This document shows, piece after piece, positions 2,147 to 62,020 of a DNA stretch of 64,000 nt (its first letter is position 1; each line of letters starts with the position of its first letter). The position numbers were made by a program, and so were the translations under genes. Below the pieces are notes generated by a model. It worked only from the letters and a program-made list of their open reading frames with translations, was not told the DNA's origin and ran no database searches. The DNA is taken from NCBI RefSeq assembly GCF_017498065.1, contig NZ_JAGDFX010000011.1, forward strand, positions 62,001 to 126,000, given 5' to 3'. This DNA comes from Oceanisphaera pacifica. GTDB lineage: Bacteria > Pseudomonadota > Gammaproteobacteria > Enterobacterales > Aeromonadaceae.

Positions 2147-2222
2147 TGGTGGGGCATGCGGGATTCGAACCTGCGACCAATTGATTAAAAGTCAACTGCT
2201 CTACCAACTGAGCTAATGCCCC
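2147..2222 (-). tRNA. tRNA-Lys (TTT), copy 1
   Basis: 76 nt including an encoded CCA. Acceptor stem GGGGCAT/ATGCCCC, D-loop AGCTCAGTTGGTAGAGC, anticodon loop CTTTTAA (anticodon TTT) and T-loop GGTTCGAATCC are all present. It is the last gene of the ten-tRNA run, which is transcribed toward lower coordinates. Confidence 0.97.
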
Positions 2223-2268
2223 GATAAATCGGTATTGCTAACCGCCCTTAGGCAATTATTACTAAATA

Positions 2269-2344
2269 TGGTGGGTGATACTGGGCTCGAACCAGTGACC
2301 CCTTCCTTGTAAGGGAAGTGCTCTCCCAGCTGAGCTAATCACCC
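2269..2344 (-). tRNA. tRNA-Val (TAC), copy 1
   Basis: 76 nt with encoded CCA. Acceptor GGGTGAT/ATCACCC, D-loop AGCTCAGCTGGGAGAGC, anticodon loop CTTACAA (TAC), T-loop GGTTCGAGCCC. Belongs to the alternating Lys/Val array. Confidence 0.97.
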
Positions 2345-2386
2345 TGGGACTTGCTTAACACGCTTGTGCTACTAAGTAGCAAAAAC

Positions 2387-2462
2387 TGGTGGGGCATGCG
2401 GGATTCGAACCTGCGACCAATTGATTAAAAGTCAACTGCTCTACCAACTGAGCTAATGCCCC
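2387..2462 (-). tRNA. tRNA-Lys (TTT), copy 2
   Basis: Same sequence as copy 1, exactly 240 bases away from it. Anticodon loop CTTTTAA, encoded CCA. Confidence 0.97.
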
Positions 2463-2508
2463 GATAAATCGGTATTGCTAACCGCCCTTAGGCAGTTATT
2501 ACTAAATC

Positions 2509-2584
2509 TGGTGGGTGATACTGGGCTCGAACCAGTGACCCCTTCCTTGTAAGGGAAGTGCTCTCCCAGCTGAGCTAATCACCC
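2509..2584 (-). tRNA. tRNA-Val (TAC), copy 2
   Basis: Same sequence as Val copy 1 at a 240-base period. Anticodon loop CTTACAA, encoded CCA. Confidence 0.97.
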
Positions 2585-2626
2585 TGGGACTTGCTTAACA
2601 TGCTTATGCTACTAAGTAGCAAAAAC

Positions 2627-2702
2627 TGGTGGGGCATGCGGGATTCGAACCTGCGACCAATTGATTAAAAGTCAACTGCTCTACCAACTGAGCTAATGCC
2701 CC
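2627..2702 (-). tRNA. tRNA-Lys (TTT), copy 3
   Basis: Third identical Lys gene of the 240-base tandem unit. Anticodon TTT, encoded CCA. Confidence 0.97.
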
Positions 2703-2748
2703 GATAAATCGGTATTGCTAACCGCCCTTAGGCAGTTATTACTAAATC

Positions 2749-2824
2749 TGGTGGGTGATACTGGGCTCGAACCAGTGACCCCTTCCTTGTAAGGGAAGTG
2801 CTCTCCCAGCTGAGCTAATCACCC
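2749..2824 (-). tRNA. tRNA-Val (TAC), copy 3
   Basis: Third identical Val gene of the 240-base tandem unit. Anticodon TAC, encoded CCA. Confidence 0.97.
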
Positions 2825-2866
2825 TGGGACTTGCTTAACATGCTTATGCTACTAAGTAGCAAAAAC

Positions 2867-2942
2867 TGGTGGGGCATGCGGGATTCGAACCTGCGACCAA
2901 TTGATTAAAAGTCAACTGCTCTACCAACTGAGCTAATGCCCC
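2867..2942 (-). tRNA. tRNA-Lys (TTT), copy 4
   Basis: Fourth Lys gene of the 240-base tandem unit. Anticodon TTT, encoded CCA. Confidence 0.97.
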
Positions 2943-2988
2943 GATAAATCGGTATTGCTAACCGCCCTTAGGCAATTATTACTAAATA

Positions 2989-3064
2989 TGGTGGGTGATA
3001 CTGGGCTCGAACCAGTGACCCCTTCCTTGTAAGGGAAGTGCTCTCCCAGCTGAGCTAATCACCC
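2989..3064 (-). tRNA. tRNA-Val (TAC), copy 4
   Basis: Fourth Val gene of the tandem unit. Anticodon TAC, encoded CCA. The spacer on its upstream (higher-coordinate) side differs from the repeated spacers. Confidence 0.97.
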
Positions 3065-3119
3065 TGGGATTTTACTGTTACCGTTTAAGTCTTAGCACTA
3101 AACCATAACCTTTATAATT

Positions 3120-3195
3120 TGGTGGGTGATACTGGGCTCGAACCAGTGACCCCTTCCTTGTAAGGGAAGTGCTCTCCCAGCTGAGCTAATCACCC
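3120..3195 (-). tRNA. tRNA-Val (TAC), copy 5
   Basis: Identical Val gene outside the 240-base repeat, with unique flanking spacers. Two Val genes are therefore adjacent here (copies 5 and 4). Confidence 0.97.
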
Positions 3196-3229
3196 TGGGT
3201 ATTCTTATTGCCATTTTAACAGCAGTAAG

Positions 3230-3305
3230 TGGTGGGGCATGCGGGATTCGAACCTGCGACCAATTGATTAAAAGTCAACTGCTCTACCAACTGAGCTAAT
3301 GCCCC
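3230..3305 (-). tRNA. tRNA-Lys (TTT), copy 5
   Basis: First tRNA of the operon in transcription order. Anticodon TTT, encoded CCA. It lies just downstream of a good promoter. Confidence 0.97.
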
Positions 3306-6135: not shown

Positions 6136-7287
6136 CTATAGCTCCGGTATCAGCGTTAGATTTGAGTTTTGTAGTTCTTTAATTAATGCAGGATCTTTAG
6201 GCATAGGCAAGGGGCTGGCTTTATTAATTGCCACCAAGGCTGAGCGACACACAGCACTGTCACCACTGATCACACTCGATTTAAGCACTAAGCCATCTTC
6301 TGCCAAACGCACATTAATTTTGCATTGTTTACCTAGCATGGGGCTGCTAACGGACCAGTTTCGCCTAACTTTCGCTTGAATGGCATTAACAGCCTGATCA
6401 ATCTCACCCTGTGAAGGCGGCTTAGGGGCACTGCTATTACCCAAGTCATCGCCCATTAAACTTTCCAGATCTGCCAAAGCTTTGTCACTGGCGGCTTTCT
6501 TGGCCTCAGCCGCTTTCTTGGCCTCAGCCACTTTCTTGGCCTCAGCCGCTTTCTTGGCCTCAGCCGCTTTCTTAGCCTCAGCCGCTTTCTTGGCCTCAGC
6601 CACTTTCTTGGCCTCAGCCACTTTCTTGGCCTCAGCCGCTTTCTTGGCCTCAGCCGCTTTCTTAGCCTCAGCCGCTTTCTTAGCCTCAGCCGCTTTCTTG
6701 GCCTCAGCCGCTTTCTTAGCCTCAGCCGCTTTCTTGGCCTCAGCCGCTTTCTTAGCCTCAGCCGCTTTTTTAGCCTCAGCCGCTTTTTTAGCCTCAGCCG
6801 CTTTTTTAGCCTCAGCCGCTTTCTTGACTTCTGCCGCTTTTTTAGCCTCAGCGGCTTTCTTCGCTTCGGCGGCCTTTTTAGCGGCTTCTGCTTGGCGTTG
6901 TTCTATCACCTGCTCTCGCTCGGCTTGGGCTTTAGCTTGTTCAGCTGCTAGCGTTGCTTGCTGTTCAGCAAGGCGAGCCGCTTCTGCTGCTTGCTCTTGT
7001 TCAATGGCATCTTGCTCTGCCTTTACTTGGGCTTCACGCTCTGCTTCAGCCTGTGCCTGCTCTTGGGCGGTGTCTTGTGCTTGCTTGGCGCGCATCTCTT
7101 CTAAACGCTTAGCTTGCTGAGCCACCATGCCATCATCAATCATGGTGGCTTCAATAATAGACACCGACTGTGTGGGTCGTTTAGGTGCCTTAACATCGAT
7201 GCCAATTAACAACACAGCCCCCACCAGCAAATGCAGCGCCAGTGAGATAATCACCGCTTTTTTGATACCGCTTTGCTTTGTCATCAC
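6136..7287 (-). CDS. tolA: Cell envelope integrity protein TolA
   Basis: TolA spans the periplasm, anchored by one N-terminal membrane segment (about residues 11-30), and transmits force from TolQR to Pal/TolB. The middle domain is a long charged helix. It starts with Glu/Gln/Ala-rich sequence (about 45-135) and continues with about twenty tandem copies of the six-residue word AKKAAE, a few reading AKKVAE. The C-terminal domain III (about 290-383) has the conserved features [11 protein letters not shown] and a Cys pair (GKQCKINV and SAVCRSAL). Family members vary widely in the helical domain. Copy number here may also vary between strains because the DNA is an 18-bp tandem repeat. Confidence 0.96.
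6487..6890. repeat. 18-bp tandem repeat within tolA
   Basis: The word GCCTCAGCCGCTTTCTTG (and close variants with TTTTTA or CACTTT) repeats about twenty times in register with the AKKAAE peptide repeat. Synonymous variants (CTTGG or CTTAG) are scattered along the array. The repeat also creates a long meaningless antisense frame. Confidence 0.93.
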
Positions 7288-8864: not shown

Positions 8865-9385
8865 AAGACAATGACTCACAGCGACGACAATTCTCGGCTA
8901 ATCAGCTATCAGCTATCAGCTATCAGCTATCAGCGAATCAAATTCGCAAAAAAAGGCAGTGCCAAGCATTAAGCTTAAAAACTACACCAGAGATTTTGGC
9001 ATGGTGCATTAATGCAGCCGCTGTGAGTTATGTAGATACTCTGTTGGACGTCAAGGCTTTGCACTATATGGTTATGCGCCCTTATTTCGTCTTTGCGAGC
9101 GTAGCGCGGCAATCCATTTCAAAGGAAAGCGCTACATCTAACGCTGACCGCGTTACGTTAAAGAAAAACTGCGGTTTTGTTTTTTCGTCAGGCGCTCAGC
9201 GTAAAGCGTACGGCTGCTTGTTAGATGGATTGCCGCGTCGTTGCACTCCTCGCAATGACCAAAGGGTGGCTCTGGCTTTTCGTAGGGGCGAATTTATTCG
9301 CACAAAAGGGCAACGCCGAGTGCCCGGCGCTGTGTTTTCTTTAACTGACAGCTTACGGCTGAAAGCTGATAGCTGACGACTGTCT
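8865..9385. repeat. Composite intergenic repeat region, copy A of the GCAATCC element
   Basis: The 585-base gap between ybgC and ruvB holds only repeats. First comes a heptamer microsatellite (ATCAGCT, nearly five copies, 8901-8934). Then comes a composite element at 9071-9307: left arm with TTTGCGAGCGTAGCGCGGCAATCCAT, a 107-bp core (9118-9224), and a right arm starting ATGGATTGCCGCG and ending in GCGAATTTATTCGC. CTGACAGCT/GCTGATAGC words follow before ruvB. Apparent reading frames here also recur in the copy near 17.6 kb and are repeat by-products. Confidence 0.85.
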
Positions 9386-17557: not shown

Positions 17558-18003
17558 GCAAAAAACCGGTCGAATGAATTCGACCCTACGCTATTGTTAT
17601 GCGCCTTTATTTCGTCTTTGCGAGCGTAGCGCGGCAATCCATCTAACAAGCAGCCGTACGCTTTACGCTGAGCGCCTGACGAAAAAACAAAACCGCAGTT
17701 TTTCTTTAACGTAACGCGGTCAGCGTTAGACGTAGCGCTTTCTTGTGAAATGGATTGCCGCGTCGTTGCACTCCTCGCAATGACCAAAGGGTGGCTCTGG
17801 CTTTTCGTAGGGGCGAATTTATTCGCACAAAAAAAACAGCACGGCTTAAAACCAGTCGAATGCTCACGCATAAAATAAGTTTTAGCACTTACCAAGCAAA
17901 TCTCTATTTTTCCGTGTTCTTCCGTGGCAAAAGTCTTGAGGCTCTATGTTTAAACTTAGTGCTTTTTGTTCTGACCGCTGATAGCTAACAGCTTTCTCTT
18001 AGC
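17558..18003. repeat. Intergenic repeats, copy B of the GCAATCC element with reversed core
   Basis: The gap before cmoA starts with an isolated REP palindrome (GGTCGAATGAATTCGACC, 17569-17586). It continues with a composite element at 17596-17828. Its outer arms match the element at 9071-9307 in the same orientation, but its 107-bp core (17643-17749) is the reverse complement. Further right are a TTTTTCCGTGTTCTTCCGTGG repeat word (near 17909) and a CTGACCGCTGATAGC word. Open frames here are repeat by-products. Confidence 0.85.
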
Positions 18004-22135: not shown

Positions 22136-23114
22136 ACGTTGGCTAGCACAATACGCCTCCCCTTTTGCCCTCGATAAAATGGGCATTATGGGCATGAATC
22201 AGCGCAATATTTCTTATATCAGCCGTTATAACCCGCGGCGTTTATATCCACTGGTGGATGATAAACTAGAAACTAAGCGCATTGCCCTAGACGCCGATGT
22301 AACAGTGCCCGACTTAATTGGCGTAATTGAGTTTCAACATCAGGTATCGAGTCTGCTAGAAAAAATTAAAGACAGGCCAGGGTTTTGTATTAAGCCGGCC
22401 AAAGGCTCGGGGGGTAAAGGTATAGTGGTGATTGTGAGCCACGACGGCCAGCACTTTATTAAGCCCAGCGGCAAAGGCGAAAGCATTGTTGATTTAGAAC
22501 GCCATGTATCGAATATTCTTGCCGGTTTATTCTCTTTAGGCGGTAAGCCTGATGTGGCGTTAATTGAGGCATTAATTGATTTTGATGAGGTGTTTGACGG
22601 CTTCTCTTACGAAGGCGTGCCCGACAGCCGCGTGATCGTCTTTAAAGGTTTTCCGGTTATGGCCATGATGCGCTTATCTACCAAGGCCTCAGACGGCAAA
22701 GCCAACCTGCACCAAGGTGCCGTGGGCGTGGGGCTGGATATTAACACCGGCAAAGCCATACGCGCCGTGCAGTTTAATCAGCCCGTTCGCTATCACCCCG
22801 ATACCGGACGCGACTTACTCGAGCTTAAAGTGCCCTACTGGGAGCTACTACTCAGCTTGTCATCGTCTTGCTACGAGATGTCGGGTCTGGGTTATATTGG
22901 CACCGACATGGTGCTAGATAAGCAAAAAGGCCCCATGTTATTGGAGCTAAACGCCCGCCCAGGCTTGGCTATTCAAACCGCCAACGGCGCCGGTTTACTA
23001 CCGCGTTTGCGCAAAATAGAACAACTCGGTAAAAATGCCACCTTTAGTCCCGAAGAAAGAGTCACCTTCGCCCGCAAAGAATTTGCCGCTTCAGTAAAAA
23101 ACAAAGCTACATAA
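22128..23114 (+). CDS. RimK-related alpha-L-glutamate ligase-like ATP-grasp protein
   Basis: The 328-residue protein has ATP-grasp features: FCIKPAKGSGGKGIVVI (glycine-rich ATP loop), ALIEALIDFDEVFDGF, DSRVIVFKGFPVMAMMRL and the metal-binding end MLLELNARPGLAIQ. RimK-type enzymes ligate amino acids, often glutamate, to a protein or peptide carboxylate. The substrate here is unknown. It completes the trio with the retropepsin-like lipoprotein and the 7TM protein, an arrangement recurrent in proteobacteria. It has no signal peptide, so ligation would be cytoplasmic while the protease partner faces the periplasm. Confidence 0.87.
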   Translation: MIKRWLAQYASPFALDKMGIMGMNQRNISYISRYNPRRLYPLVDDKLETKRIALDADVTVPDLIGVIEFQHQVSSLLEKIKDRPGFCIKPAKGSGGKGIVVIVSHDGQHFIKPSGKGESIVDLERHVSNILAGLFSLGGKPDVALIEALIDFDEVFDGFSYEGVPDSRVIVFKGFPVMAMMRLSTKASDGKANLHQGAVGVGLDINTGKAIRAVQFNQPVRYHPDTGRDLLELKVPYWELLLSLSSSCYEMSGLGYIGTDMVLDKQKGPMLLELNARPGLAIQTANGAGLLPRLRKIEQLGKNATFSPEERVTFARKEFAASVKNKAT

Positions 23115-23121
23115 GCAAGCC

Positions 23122-23609
23122 GTAGGGTCGAATTCATTCGACCGGTTTTAGGCCACGTACCACGGTTTTTGGTCCAATAAATTGGACCCTACGAAAAGAT
23201 TAAAACCCACCGAATGTCTAAAATGTAGGGTCGAATTCATTCGACCGGTTTTAGGCCACGTACCACGGTTTTTGGTCCAATAAATTGGACCCTACGAAAA
23301 GATTAAAACCCACCGAATGTCTAAAATGTAGGGTCGAATTCATTCGACCGATTTTAGGCCACGTACCACGGTTTTTGGTCCAATAAATTGGACCCTACGA
23401 AAAGATTAAAACCCACCGAATGTCTAAAATGTAGGGTCGAATTCATTCGACCGGTTTTAGGCCACGTGCCACGGTTTTGGTCCAATAAATTGGACCCTAC
23501 GAAAAGATTAAAACCCACCGAATGTCTAAAATGTAGGGTCGAATTCATTCGACCGATTTTAGGCCGTACCACGGCTTTTGTGCGAATAAATTCGCCCTTA
23601 CATAAACAA
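23122..23609. repeat. REP-like array: 103-bp unit, nearly five tandem copies
   Basis: Units begin at 23122, 23225, 23328, 23431 and 23533 (period 103, 103, 103, 102; the last is incomplete). Each full unit has two perfect palindromes, GGTCGAATTCATTCGACC and GGTCCAATAAATTGGACC. The first is preceded by GTAG and the second followed by CTAC, so the outer words are themselves inverted. The partial last unit ends with a GCGAATAAATTCGC palindrome. The array lies immediately downstream of the transposase gene. Confidence 0.92.
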
Positions 23610-23629
23610 AAAATAATTATTTACCACTC

Positions 23630-24079
23630 TTATAACCATATTGCATCCCAATGCGGATAATCTTCTATACGCTCAACTAATCCCTTGCGCAATGGGTTAG
23701 CAACAATATAACGGGCAATATGCTTTATATCTTCTTCCTGCCTTAATGCATGATCGTAATATCCTTTTTGCCATATTGCCCCCTGCCTTTGCATCGTCAC
23801 ATTTAACTGCCTGGCGGTTTTTCCTTTTAGCATTTTGACAACCTCAGACAATGTCAGTGAAGTATTCAAAGCAAATAACCAATGCAAGTGATCAGGCATC
23901 ACTACCCATGCTAGCGAGCTAACACTATAGGTGTCATGTAGGTTTTTTAATTCACTGATAACGATACGAGCATTCGTAAATTGACTAAATACCGGTTCGC
24001 GATTGTAGGTACAAATCGTAACGTGATAGGCAGTGTTAGCCATAGAATTACGCCCGATAAGCAGCTTCTCTCTCGACAT
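23630..24079 (-). CDS. REP-associated tyrosine transposase (RAYT, Y1/HUH superfamily)
   Basis: The 149-residue product contains the HUH motif MPDHLHWLF (His64, His66) after a first strand AYHVTICTYNREPVF. MLKGKTARQLN, IWQKGYYDHALRQEEDIKHIARYI (probable nucleophile Tyr124) and ANPLRKGLV follow. This is the TnpA_REP/RAYT signature, distinct from IS200 TnpA. Such enzymes nick single-stranded REP hairpins. Here the gene is bracketed by palindrome arrays on both sides, the classic REPtron layout. The start could be the first Met or Met13 (MANTAYHV). The frame looks intact. Confidence 0.9.
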   Translation of the reverse strand: MSREKLLIGRNSMANTAYHVTICTYNREPVFSQFTNARIVISELKNLHDTYSVSSLAWVVMPDHLHWLFALNTSLTLSEVVKMLKGKTARQLNVTMQRQGAIWQKGYYDHALRQEEDIKHIARYIVANPLRKGLVERIEDYPHWDAIWL

Positions 24080-24159
24080 AATGTGTACCGCGCAGAAACA
24101 GAAGAGATGCGATAAGAGTAGCAGAGGCTTAGCCAGCTAGGGTTTGTTTTGATCCAGTC

Positions 24160-24296
24160 ATTTTTGGTCCAATGAATTGGACCCTACGAAAAGATTTAAA
24201 CCCAACGGGTGTATTAAATGTAGGGTCGAATTCATTCGACCGGTTTTAGGCCACGTACCACGGGTTTTGGTCCAATGAATTGGACCCTACGAAAAT
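24160..24296. repeat. REP-like array upstream of the transposase
   Basis: About one and a half copies of the same unit as at 23122-23609, with GGTCCAATGAATTGGACC at both ends and GGTCGAATTCATTCGACC between them. The spacer at about 24190-24215 (AAGATTTAAACCCAACGGGTG) is diverged from the downstream array. Confidence 0.9.
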
Positions 24297-24331
24297 AAAA
24301 AAGCCCCAGACCGTTTGGTTGGGGCTTTTGC
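24297..24331 (-). terminator. Terminator of the rnm-yciO-rluB unit
   Basis: On the minus strand AAGCCCCAACCAAACGGTCTGGGGC is a stem-loop followed by six T, about 30 bases after the rluB stop. It closely resembles the trp operon terminator at 33784. Confidence 0.85.
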
Positions 24332-24356
24332 TTTAGCTAGGCGCTTGGCGCTGTTT

Positions 24357-25307
24357 TTACAACCTTGTTTTCGGTTTTTGCTTGGGGTTGCGGGCGCGTT
24401 TAGGGGCGGCGGGCTTTTTCTTTGGCCCTGTGCTGGCACCGGTTCCGGCGTTGGTGCCGCCGCTTTTTACACGGGTATTATGGCGGCGTACGGCTTTGCG
24501 AATTTGCGTTAGCTGCTTATGACGCTTAGGCGCATCCACCTCTACCTTAGTTTCTTTTTCTGCTGTTAACCCCACGGCACCGCGCAGGTAATTCACCTGA
24601 TCCAGAGGCATTTCAGACCAGCCCCCACGAGGCACATCTTTGGGTAGCAGTATTTTACCGTAACGCACCCGGATCAAACGGCTAACCTGCATCTCTTGTG
24701 ACTCCCACAAGCGACGTACTTCGCGGTTACGACCTTCTTTTAACGTCACATGAAACCAGTGGTTCATGCCCTCGCCACCGCTGTATTTAATGGTATCAAA
24801 TTTCCCCATACCATCTTCTAGCATCACGCCTTTTAACAAACGTTGCACCATGGCTTGGTCAACTTCACCAAAAACGCGCACCGCATATTCACGGTCAATT
24901 TCGTGGCGTGGGTGCATTAAGCGGTTGGCTAACTCGCCGTCTGTAGTAAACAGCAATAACCCTGAGGTATTCACATCTAAACGCCCTACCGAGATCCAGC
25001 GAGCGCCTTGCAGTTTTGGCAGGCGATCAAATACCGTTGGTCGCCCTTCGGGATCTTTACGGGTACTCACTTCACCTTCTGGCTTGTGGTAGGCCAATAC
25101 GCGGCACATTACATCGGCTTCAGCTTGCGTTTCTATTTGGTGGCCGTCTACGCGAATTTGCTCGCGCCCCGTCACACGATCGCCTAATACGGCAACCTTG
25201 CCATCCACACTCACTCGTCCTTGGCTGATCATCGCCTCAAGTTCACGGCGTGATCCTCTGCCAGCTCGCGCCAGCACTTTTTGCAGTTTTTCTGTCATGT
25301 TACTCAT
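24357..25307 (-). CDS. rluB: 23S rRNA pseudouridine 2605 synthase RluB
   Basis: RluB converts U2605 of 23S rRNA to pseudouridine. The 316-residue product starts with an S4 RNA-binding domain ([22 protein letters not shown]). The RsuA-family catalytic domain follows with the aspartate motif [28 protein letters not shown] basic, Lys/Arg-rich tail (about 265-316) is usual for RluB. In E. coli rluB lies beside yciO and the trp operon, as here. Confidence 0.95.
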
Positions 25308-33984: not shown

Positions 33985-34300
33985 CTCCCGAAGGGTTGGC
34001 GTAAACGTACAGCGTAAGACGTATCGCTTGTTTTTCAGCTTGGTGCTCGGCGCTATAGTCGCTTTGCTTTGGTAGAGGCCGCTTCAGCTGGCCGGTGGCG
34101 CGCAGCGGCGCTTTTTTTGCCGTCATTGCGAGGAGTGCAACGACGCGGCAATCCATTGAACAGACAGCCATACGTTTACGCCTAACGCGATACGAGCAAG
34201 CCGTGTGTTCTTTAACGTACAGCGTAAGGCGTACCGCTTGTCTTTCAGCTTGGCGCTCGGTGCTATAGTTACTGACAGCTACCCAAAGGAGGACTGATGC
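33985..34300. repeat. Intergenic repeat region upstream of leuA
   Basis: Holds a truncated GCAATCC element (GTCATTGCGAGGAGTGCAAC...GGCAATCCAT at about 34122-34156). Its core (ACAGCCATACG...) is in the orientation of copy B near 17.6 kb. It is flanked by two related stretches, each with ACGTACAGCGTAAG and TTTCAGCTTGG (near 34010 and 34215). From 34300 to the leuA start only unassigned sequence is seen, presumably the leuA promoter region. No leader peptide rich in Leu was found. Confidence 0.65.
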
Positions 34301-38664: not shown

Positions 38665-39320
38665 GAGCAGCCGTACGCTTTACAACGACCGTTGTACAAA
38701 AAATTAAACTGGTTTTTAACTTCCAGCCGTCATTGCGAGGTACGAAGCAATCCATGGTAAAAGAGAGCAGAACGTCTAACGCTGTACGCCTTACGTTAAA
38801 AATAAAACAGGTTTGATTTTTCGTACCGCGCTCAGCGTAAGCATATAGCTGCCTGTTAGATGGATTGCCGCGTCGCTGCGCTCCTCGCAAAGACTGATTG
38901 GGGTTGCCCTCCTCACCCCTTACGTTTCACCATTAGTTTTTAGTCTCATGTCTCCAGCTCGCCCCTTTCCTGCTGTCATTGCGAGGTACGAAGCAATCCA
39001 AGTCTTCGGTCTTATCTTTTGAACTTAATTAAACATTCAAAATTTAGCATTCAACATTGCTCTTAATCCTGGGCGCAGGGCGCTGTTCTCTAGCCGTCAT
39101 CCTGAACTCGATTCAGGATCTCGATTTAGTCTTTAGGCCTTAAACATCAAAGCGAGATACCGGGGCGAGCCCGGTATGACGGCAAAGGGCCAAAGCAGCG
39201 TTTCGATTTAGTTTGGCGCTGCTCTTGCTGTCTTTGCGCTCTTAGCTTGGTGCTGGGCGCTGGGCGCTATGTTTTGCTCTTCTAAATCTAATTAAACATT
39301 CAAAATTTAGCATTCAACAT
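38665..39320. repeat. Composite repeat region between hipA and the beta-CASP gene
   Basis: Includes a complete GCAATCC element (38729-38893: left arm GTCATTGCGAGG...GCAATCCAT, core, right arm ATGGATTGCCGCG...CTCCTCGC). A further GTCATTGCGAGGTACGAAGCAATCC follows at 38977. Two GATCCTGA-type palindromes (39097-39122 and 39161-39181) come next. An ATTAAACATTCAAAATTTAGCATTCAACATTG word occurs twice (39028 and 39291). No gene is supported in this 750-base gap. Confidence 0.8.
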
Positions 39321-46873: not shown

Positions 46874-46988
46874 GAAAGCCTCCTATCGAGATACCCGCAT
46901 TTTGAGCCATGCGCTATATAATTATTTACCTATTGGTGAACAGTCTGACATATATATTAGGGTTTGTTAAATGAGTAAGGGGTAGCTA

Positions 46989-47118
<130 letters not shown>

Positions 47119-47129
47119 TAAAAAAACAA

Positions 47130-47835
47130 GAACAAACAAAAGCAAAACCTAAACCAGCGTAAAGCGTATCGCCGTCTGTTCGATGGATTGCCGCGTCGCT
47201 ACGCTCCTCGCAATGACGGCAAAAACGAGATCCTGAATCAAGTTCAGGATGACGGCTAAAAAACAGCTGTAAGCTATGAGCTGTCAGCCGTCAGAACAAA
47301 CAAAGGCAAAACCTAAACCGGCGTAAAGCGTATCGTCGTCTGTTCGATGGATTGCCGCGTCGCTACGCTCCTCGCAATGACGGCAAAAACGAGATCCTGA
47401 ATCAAGTTCAGGATGACGGCTAAAAAAACAGCTGTAAGCTATGAGCCGTCAGCCGTCAGAACAAACAAAGGCAAAACCTAAACCGGCGTAAAGCGTATCG
47501 TCGTCTGTTCGATGGATTGCCGCGTCGCTACGCTCCTCGCAATGACGGCAAAAACGAGATCCTGAATCAAGTTCAGGATGACGGCTAAAAAAACAGCTGT
47601 AAGCTATGAGCCGTCAGCCGTCAGAACAAACAAAGGCAAAACCTAAACCGGCGTAAAGCGTATCGTCGTCTGTTCGATGGATTGCCGCGTCGCTACGCTC
47701 CTCGCAATGACGGCAAAAACGAGATCCTGAATCAAGTTCAGGATGACGGCTAAAAGACAGCTGTCTTTTAGCCGCTCTGTGTTCGGTTTGCTTTTTGTTT
47801 CTCTGACCGCTGACGGCTTAAAGCTGACAGCTATT
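47130..47835. repeat. 165-bp tandem composite repeat, nearly four copies
   Basis: Units repeat at 47181, 47345, 47510 and 47675 (periods 164, 165, 165, measured at CGATGGATTGCCGCG). Each unit joins a half GCAATCC palindrome (ATTGCCGCGTCGCTACGCTCCTCGCAATGACGG), a GAGATCCTGAATCAAGTTCAGGATGACGG palindrome, AGCTGTAAGCTATGAGC words and GCGTAAAGCGTATCG. The region ends with CTGACCGCTGACGGC words before the next gene. No coding function. Confidence 0.92.
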
Positions 47836-61468: not shown

Positions 61469-62020
61469 ATGTTAATAGAACCGAGCAAAGCAGCCTTAAT
61501 GGTAATTGATGTACAAGAAAAGCTAGCGCCAGCCATTGCCGATAGCGCGCAACTAACAGCACGCATTCAATGGTTAATTGGCGCCTGCCAAATACTCAAG
61601 ACGCCGACCATTTTTACTGAGCAGTATCCAAAAGGGCTGGGCCATACTTTGCCTGCGTTACTGAGCACTGTGGAGCAACCAGAAGTTGTTGAAAAAACAC
61701 ATTTCTCTGTAGTGGCGGCTAATTGTCTGCCCGCCCAGTGGCAGCGCTATGAACAAGTGATAGTAACAGGCATGGAAGCGCACGTTTGCGTATTACAAAC
61801 GGTGTTAGAGCTATTAAAAGCCGGCAAAGAGGTGTTTGTGGTCGCTGATGCAGTGGGCAGCCGTAGTGAGCAAAATCGTCAATTAGGTTTAGAGCGTATG
61901 CGTAACGCCGGTGCACAGATTGTTAGCCGAGAAATGGTGGTATTTGAGTTATTGCAACAAGCTGGCACCGAGCAGTTTAAAACCATCAGCAAACAGTTTT
62001 TGCGCGGTGAACAGCCTTAA
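61469..62020 (+). CDS. Isochorismatase-family cysteine hydrolase
   Basis: The 183-residue product has the catalytic Asp in AALMVIDVQEKLAPAI, the Lys near VVEKTHFSV and the Cys in VIVTGMEAHVCVLQTVLELL, the D-K-C triad of the family. The nearest well-known relatives by these words are YcaC-like and nicotinamidase-like hydrolases. The substrate is not predictable. Start has GAGGAG upstream. Own promoter presumed, since a terminator precedes it. Confidence 0.88.
   Translation: MLIEPSKAALMVIDVQEKLAPAIADSAQLTARIQWLIGACQILKTPTIFTEQYPKGLGHTLPALLSTVEQPEVVEKTHFSVVAANCLPAQWQRYEQVIVTGMEAHVCVLQTVLELLKAGKEVFVVADAVGSRSEQNRQLGLERMRNAGAQIVSREMVVFELLQQAGTEQFKTISKQFLRGEQP

Follow-up and report, generated by a model that had tools for sequence, protein, structure and literature searches.

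A rare and probably single spacer inversion, with probable later copying, in a family of paired palindromic repeats of Oceanisphaera pacifica

Two copies of a dispersed repeat in the genome of Oceanisphaera pacifica carry the same 107-bp spacer in opposite orientations, between outer arms that run in the same direction in both. We argue here that the difference goes back to a rare inversion of the spacer, probably a single one, within a family of paired palindromic repeats, and that the inverted form was probably copied later. In its full form, which we hold with reasonable though far from complete confidence, the argument is that a single inversion took place between the 13-bp inverted repeats on either side of the spacer, likely by template switching, and that the flipped element subsequently reached a second site by copying or dispersal. 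Both copies lie in a stretch of 64,000 nucleotides (the window; positions 62,001 to 126,000 of contig NZ_JAGDFX010000011.1). Coordinates without a prefix are those of the window, and those with a contig handle (such as C33) belong to the genome at large. The features that enter the argument are as follows.

9031-9117, plus strand: left arm of the forward element, with an extended part from TGTAGATACTCTG and a CGTC-tagged palindrome ending in CGCGGCAATCCAT at 9105-9117; aligned with 15 other copies
9118-9224, plus strand: 107-bp spacer (core) of the forward element, in forward orientation
9225-9307, plus strand: right arm of the forward element (ATGGATTGCCGCG...GCAATGAC) and GTAG-type REP GTAGGGGCGAATTTATTCGC
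17592-17642, plus strand: left arm of the flipped-spacer element, lacking the outer extension; a GTAG-type REP (minus strand) abuts just outside
17630-17642, plus strand: left half of the 13-bp inverted repeat, CGCGGCAATCCAT
17643-17749, minus strand: 107-bp spacer of the flipped-spacer element, inverted relative to its own arms
17750-17762, minus strand: right half of the 13-bp inverted repeat, ATGGATTGCCGCG
17750-17832, plus strand: right arm of the flipped-spacer element and GTAG-type REP
23630-24079, minus strand: gene for a REP-associated tyrosine transposase (RAYT; NF047646, 154.7 bits against a cut-off of 80; PF01797), between tandem 103-bp units that contain GTAG REPs
34122-34245, minus strand: truncated forward element, right arm (34122-34156) and then spacer (34159-34245)
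38728-38894, plus strand: older, divergent forward element (76-79%)

When 17643-17749 is reverse-complemented, it aligns with the core at 9118-9224 without a gap over 107 of 107 positions, at 97.2% identity, and an E value of about 3e-38 excludes chance as the source of the match. The left arms (9071-9117 and 17596-17642) agree at 97.9% and the right arms (9225-9307 and 17750-17832) at 100% over 83 bp, in both cases in direct orientation. The 13-bp inverted repeat CGCGGCAATCCAT / ATGGATTGCCGCG flanks the core exactly in both elements, and the inverted match returned by a repeat finder, 133 bp long and 98% identical (9105-9237 with 17630-17762), takes in the 13-bp repeats on both sides. What is seen is thus the pattern of a spacer inversion, in which the spacer (here 107 bp) is exactly reversed between unchanged arms of more than 9 bp (here 13 bp). 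The inversion at 17596 is real, and the main part of the first-pass annotation, which had described a reversed 107-bp core between collinear outer arms, with a 13-bp inverted repeat at its borders, is correct on each of these points. A simple inverted insertion of the whole 17596 element was also considered and is rejected, since the arms keep their direction. The left arm, on the other hand, had been drawn too short: full copies start with TGTAGATACTCTGTTGG, about 40 bases further out (at 9031 in the first copy), and the 17596 copy lacks this outer part and has a GTAG palindrome in its place.

What kind of element is this? The unit consists of two palindromic repeats with their CCAT ends facing each other (CGTC...GCGGCAATCCAT / ATGGATTGCCGC...), a spacer between them and, at the right end, a GTAG-type REP. 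Such elements are pairs of REP-like palindromes (CGTC...CCAT-spacer-ATGG...), and what had been called the "core" is their spacer. The left arm reads CGTC...TCCAT and the right arm, from its outer end inward, GGTC...TCCAT. Because the left and right palindromes diverge just outside the 13 bases that they have in common, the orientation of a spacer relative to its arms can be read directly. The complete unit forms a single hairpin, and its fold is far better than those of shuffled sequences (z of -4.5 for the forward form and -6.9 for the flipped one), and the GTAG palindrome GTAGGGGCGAATTTATTCGC at the right end folds with a z of -5.3. The spacer is itself an imperfect palindrome, with a self-match of about 68-70%, so that a single strand of the unit can form one long hairpin. 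Single arms, in contrast, fold no better than shuffled sequences and do not form a stem of 8-9 bp with a loop of 4-5 nt.

Among described classes, CGTC-tagged REP dimers with structured spacers (Di Nocera et al. 2013, PMC3733652) come closest; their spacers are variable, mostly 20-100 bp, and can fold into one large hairpin. The elements described here have the CGTC tag, the CCA tail, two opposed units, the heterodimer arrangement and the large hairpin in common with that class; however, because the individual arms lack the stem of 8-9 bp and loop of 4-5 nt, we do not file them as full members, even though tag and tail fit. The word "inversion" is absent from that paper, and a literature search with sequence words from the arm repeats gave no relevant paper among those listed. 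The right end also resembles the GTAG REPs and REPINs that are associated with RAYT proteins, in that GTAG is followed by a short palindrome and a GTAG-flanked RAYT gene lies in the window. Unlike in those families, GTAG occurs only at the right end of the element, and mobilization by RAYT is putative here. It is possible that the RAYT encoded at 23630-24079 mobilizes the GTAG end of the element; we found no evidence to support a role for it in the flip itself.

The polarity of the spacer was then read across the genome. Among 72 places of the spacer family in the genome loci examined, 46 adjoin a recognisable arm, 25 are solo and 1 is ambiguous. Forward polarity was found in 43 of the 46 arm-flanked spacers, including old copies at 70-85% identity, and forward is accordingly the ancestral polarity. 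The three flipped spacers are C2:79643-79749 (the element at 17643-17749), C33:137832-137937, which has both arms, and C33:76413-76518, which has only a right-type arm. Two of the three elements are complete (the 17596 element and C33:137747) and the third is partial. Within the window, a third copy had been placed at 38729-38893 in the first orientation, and comparison bears this out. The truncated copy near 34122, which had been taken for a second example of the flipped orientation, is not flipped, because its right arm and core both lie on the minus strand; the copy is of the forward kind, truncated and placed in reverse. Five loci (L011, L013, L017, L018 and L019) hold a compound spacer of 206-209 nt within the same arms, all in forward polarity, in which the first ~93 bases of the 107-bp spacer are joined at a fixed point to other palindromic sequence (TAGAAAGCCGGAAGC...).

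In two sister species (G005 and G014), the same arms enclose spacers of only 24-29 nt, of two unrelated sequences (for example at L032, L041, L042, L049 and L050), and 0 of 53 classifiable units are flipped. The pairing of the same arms with unrelated short spacers suggests that, in the course of evolution, arm pairs have swapped their spacers or acquired new ones. The gap between the DUF72 gene and cmoA contains no such element in these two nearest species, nor in the other members of the genus whose gap was read. Pattern scans of the genome collection gave no match with a spacer of 85-115 bp, and nine short-spacer stretches in unrelated proteobacteria.

How many inversions are needed to account for the flipped spacers? 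The two full flipped spacers (17596 and C33:137747) are set apart by a single substitution (0.9%) and an indel of one base, and the distance from either to any forward spacer is 1.9% or more. They nest among the forward spacers of the same young subfamily. The right-end extension GCACGGCTTAA is present in both and in the forward copy C31:59011, and at alignment positions 19 and 35 of the spacer both have the variants of C31:59011 and C16:142. This combination, in which the full flipped spacers are nearest each other and have variants in common with forward copies, favors one inversion followed by copying, and the simplest history would be one inversion in the ancestor of the two full flipped copies. 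The right arms conflict with a single event, since an indel there differs between the two copies (GGGTG versus GGGAGTC), unless the arms were exchanged later. A tree of the spacers (107 columns) has no strongly supported branches and leaves one event undistinguished from two or three (AU p of 0.415), because there are too few informative columns. The third, partial flipped spacer (C33:76413-76518) lies 7.6-8.5% from the other two and may record a separate event. Perhaps inversion recurs at the paired palindromic repeats of this species, which would then be hot spots independent of any recombinase, with spacers of ~100 bp that flip repeatedly through template switching or exchange and at least two events behind the three flipped copies; we regard this broader proposal as doubtful.

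As to mechanism, the spacer, which had a fixed polarity, would have been inverted once, between its bordering 13-bp repeats, in the ancestor of the 17596 and C33:137747 copies. In this scenario the polymerase switches templates at the hairpin: the growing strand would jump to the opposite template inside one 13-bp repeat, copy the spacer backwards and jump back in the other; base pairing within the imperfect palindrome of the spacer could bring the arms together. The flipped element would afterwards have been copied or dispersed to a second site. Template switching fits the exact endpoints at perfect 13-bp repeats, the unchanged arms and the strong hairpin, and we infer this route by analogy with yeast, where spacer inversion at short inverted repeats by polymerase template switching has been documented (Abraham and Hazkani-Covo 2021, PMC8604942). 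The yeast inversions were seen only with arms of over 9 bp and involve spacers of 2-5 bp within genes. The likeness lies in the unchanged arms and in a spacer exactly reversed between short perfect inverted repeats, and the differences lie in the 107-bp spacer, which is long for template switching by the yeast measure, in the setting of a dispersed bacterial repeat rather than coding genes, and in the presence of the flipped form in more than one place. The absence of flipped units among the 53 short-spacer units of the sister species likewise runs opposite to a simple preference for short loops. Small inversions in noncoding chloroplast DNA, reviewed in PMC3123225, offer a second parallel; they are tied to stem-loop-forming palindromes, and the present case is similarly noncoding and palindrome-associated. 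The chloroplast inversions, however, are at single orthologous plastid loci where, in contrast to the present case, recurrent flipping has been shown.

The inversion could also have come about by exchange between copies rather than within one copy, a serious rival, albeit one that we judge unlikely. In such an ectopic gene conversion, a 13-bp repeat would have paired with the opposite arm of another copy during repair, and the spacer would have been copied in reverse. In its favor, near-identical copies number at least 16 in the genome, different spacers occur between the same arms (the compound 206-209 nt spacers here and the unrelated short ones in the sister species), and arm indels and spacer variants yield conflicting groupings. 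On the other side, strand exchange would have to take place inside no more than 13 bp of identical sequence at either end, and none of the copies stands out as the donor. Two independent insertions, in which a mobile spacer would have invaded the arm element once in each orientation, would make use of the spacer relatives found away from arms, at the 25 solo places, but are very unlikely: the junctions are identical to the base in both orientations with no remnant of an older spacer, the flipped spacers fall within the divergence of the young forward subfamily, and the polarity of arms plus spacer is older than that subfamily.

An invertible switch (inverton), in which the 13-bp repeats are the targets of a site-specific recombinase that turns the spacer around and possibly alters the expression of neighboring genes, is highly improbable. 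The elements do resemble such phase-variable inversions in having a segment between short inverted repeats in two orientations, 13 bp falls within the 10-40 nt range of inverton inverted repeats (PMC11892184), and the genome has 11 matches to tyrosine-recombinase domains. The tyrosine recombinases do not adjoin the element, however, and no match to a serine resolvase/invertase was found in the genome. The genes beside the two window elements encode a DUF72 protein, CmoA, YbgC and RuvB, none of them a recombinase of such a kind, and the sole promoter-like match near 17596 falls outside the spacer. Only 3 of the 46 spacers are flipped, and the element is a dispersed repeat rather than a fixed regulatory site; unlike known invertons, it has no such recombinase beside it and shows no sign of a regulatory role. 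The least probable alternative is an artefact of assembly, which a repeated element in a fragmented draft of 37 contigs might invite, since two contigs, of 132 and 202 kb, have the flipped junctions in common with different flanks and right arms, and since a read or k-mer over about 30 bp separates the two forms by the differences between the arms immediately beyond the 13-bp repeat.

We therefore return to a single inversion by template switching, followed by copying, as the preferred account. The earlier suggestion of inversion between short inverted repeats in non-autonomous repeats is supported by the exact endpoints, the polarity of 43 of the 46 spacers and the nesting of flipped spacers among forward ones. 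Active inversion is not supported, given only three flipped spacers, of which the two full ones look like one event, no serine recombinase match in the genome and no promoter-like site in the spacer. Rather than an on/off switch, the flipped form appears to be the product of an old error in copying that a further copy later received; events of this kind are known, the setting is new, and the case is fairly ordinary. It nevertheless shows, in a clean natural example, that inversion between 13-bp inverted repeats can affect a spacer as long as ~100 bp in a bacterial repeat. The flipped element is probably still able to spread, in which case spacer polarity would not be required for dispersal. 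If inversion should prove recurrent, multi-copy palindromic repeats would constitute a built-in record of template-switch inversion in bacteria, with loops well beyond the 2-5 bp of yeast.

Several other repeats in the window deserve brief mention. The RAYT gene sits inside an array of tandem 103-bp units (23100-24370), with two opposed palindromes per unit and GTAG units on both sides in unequal counts. At 46984-47755, a run of AGCGGTC heptamers precedes four tandem units of 165 bp, each with a palindrome of the right-arm type. Ten consecutive tRNA genes, five for Lys(TTT) and five for Val(TAC), mostly alternate in 240-bp tandem units at 2147-3305. Finally, more than 20 tandem repeats of 18 bp (6401-6976) lie inside an open frame on the minus strand (6136-7287), near a ybgC-like gene.
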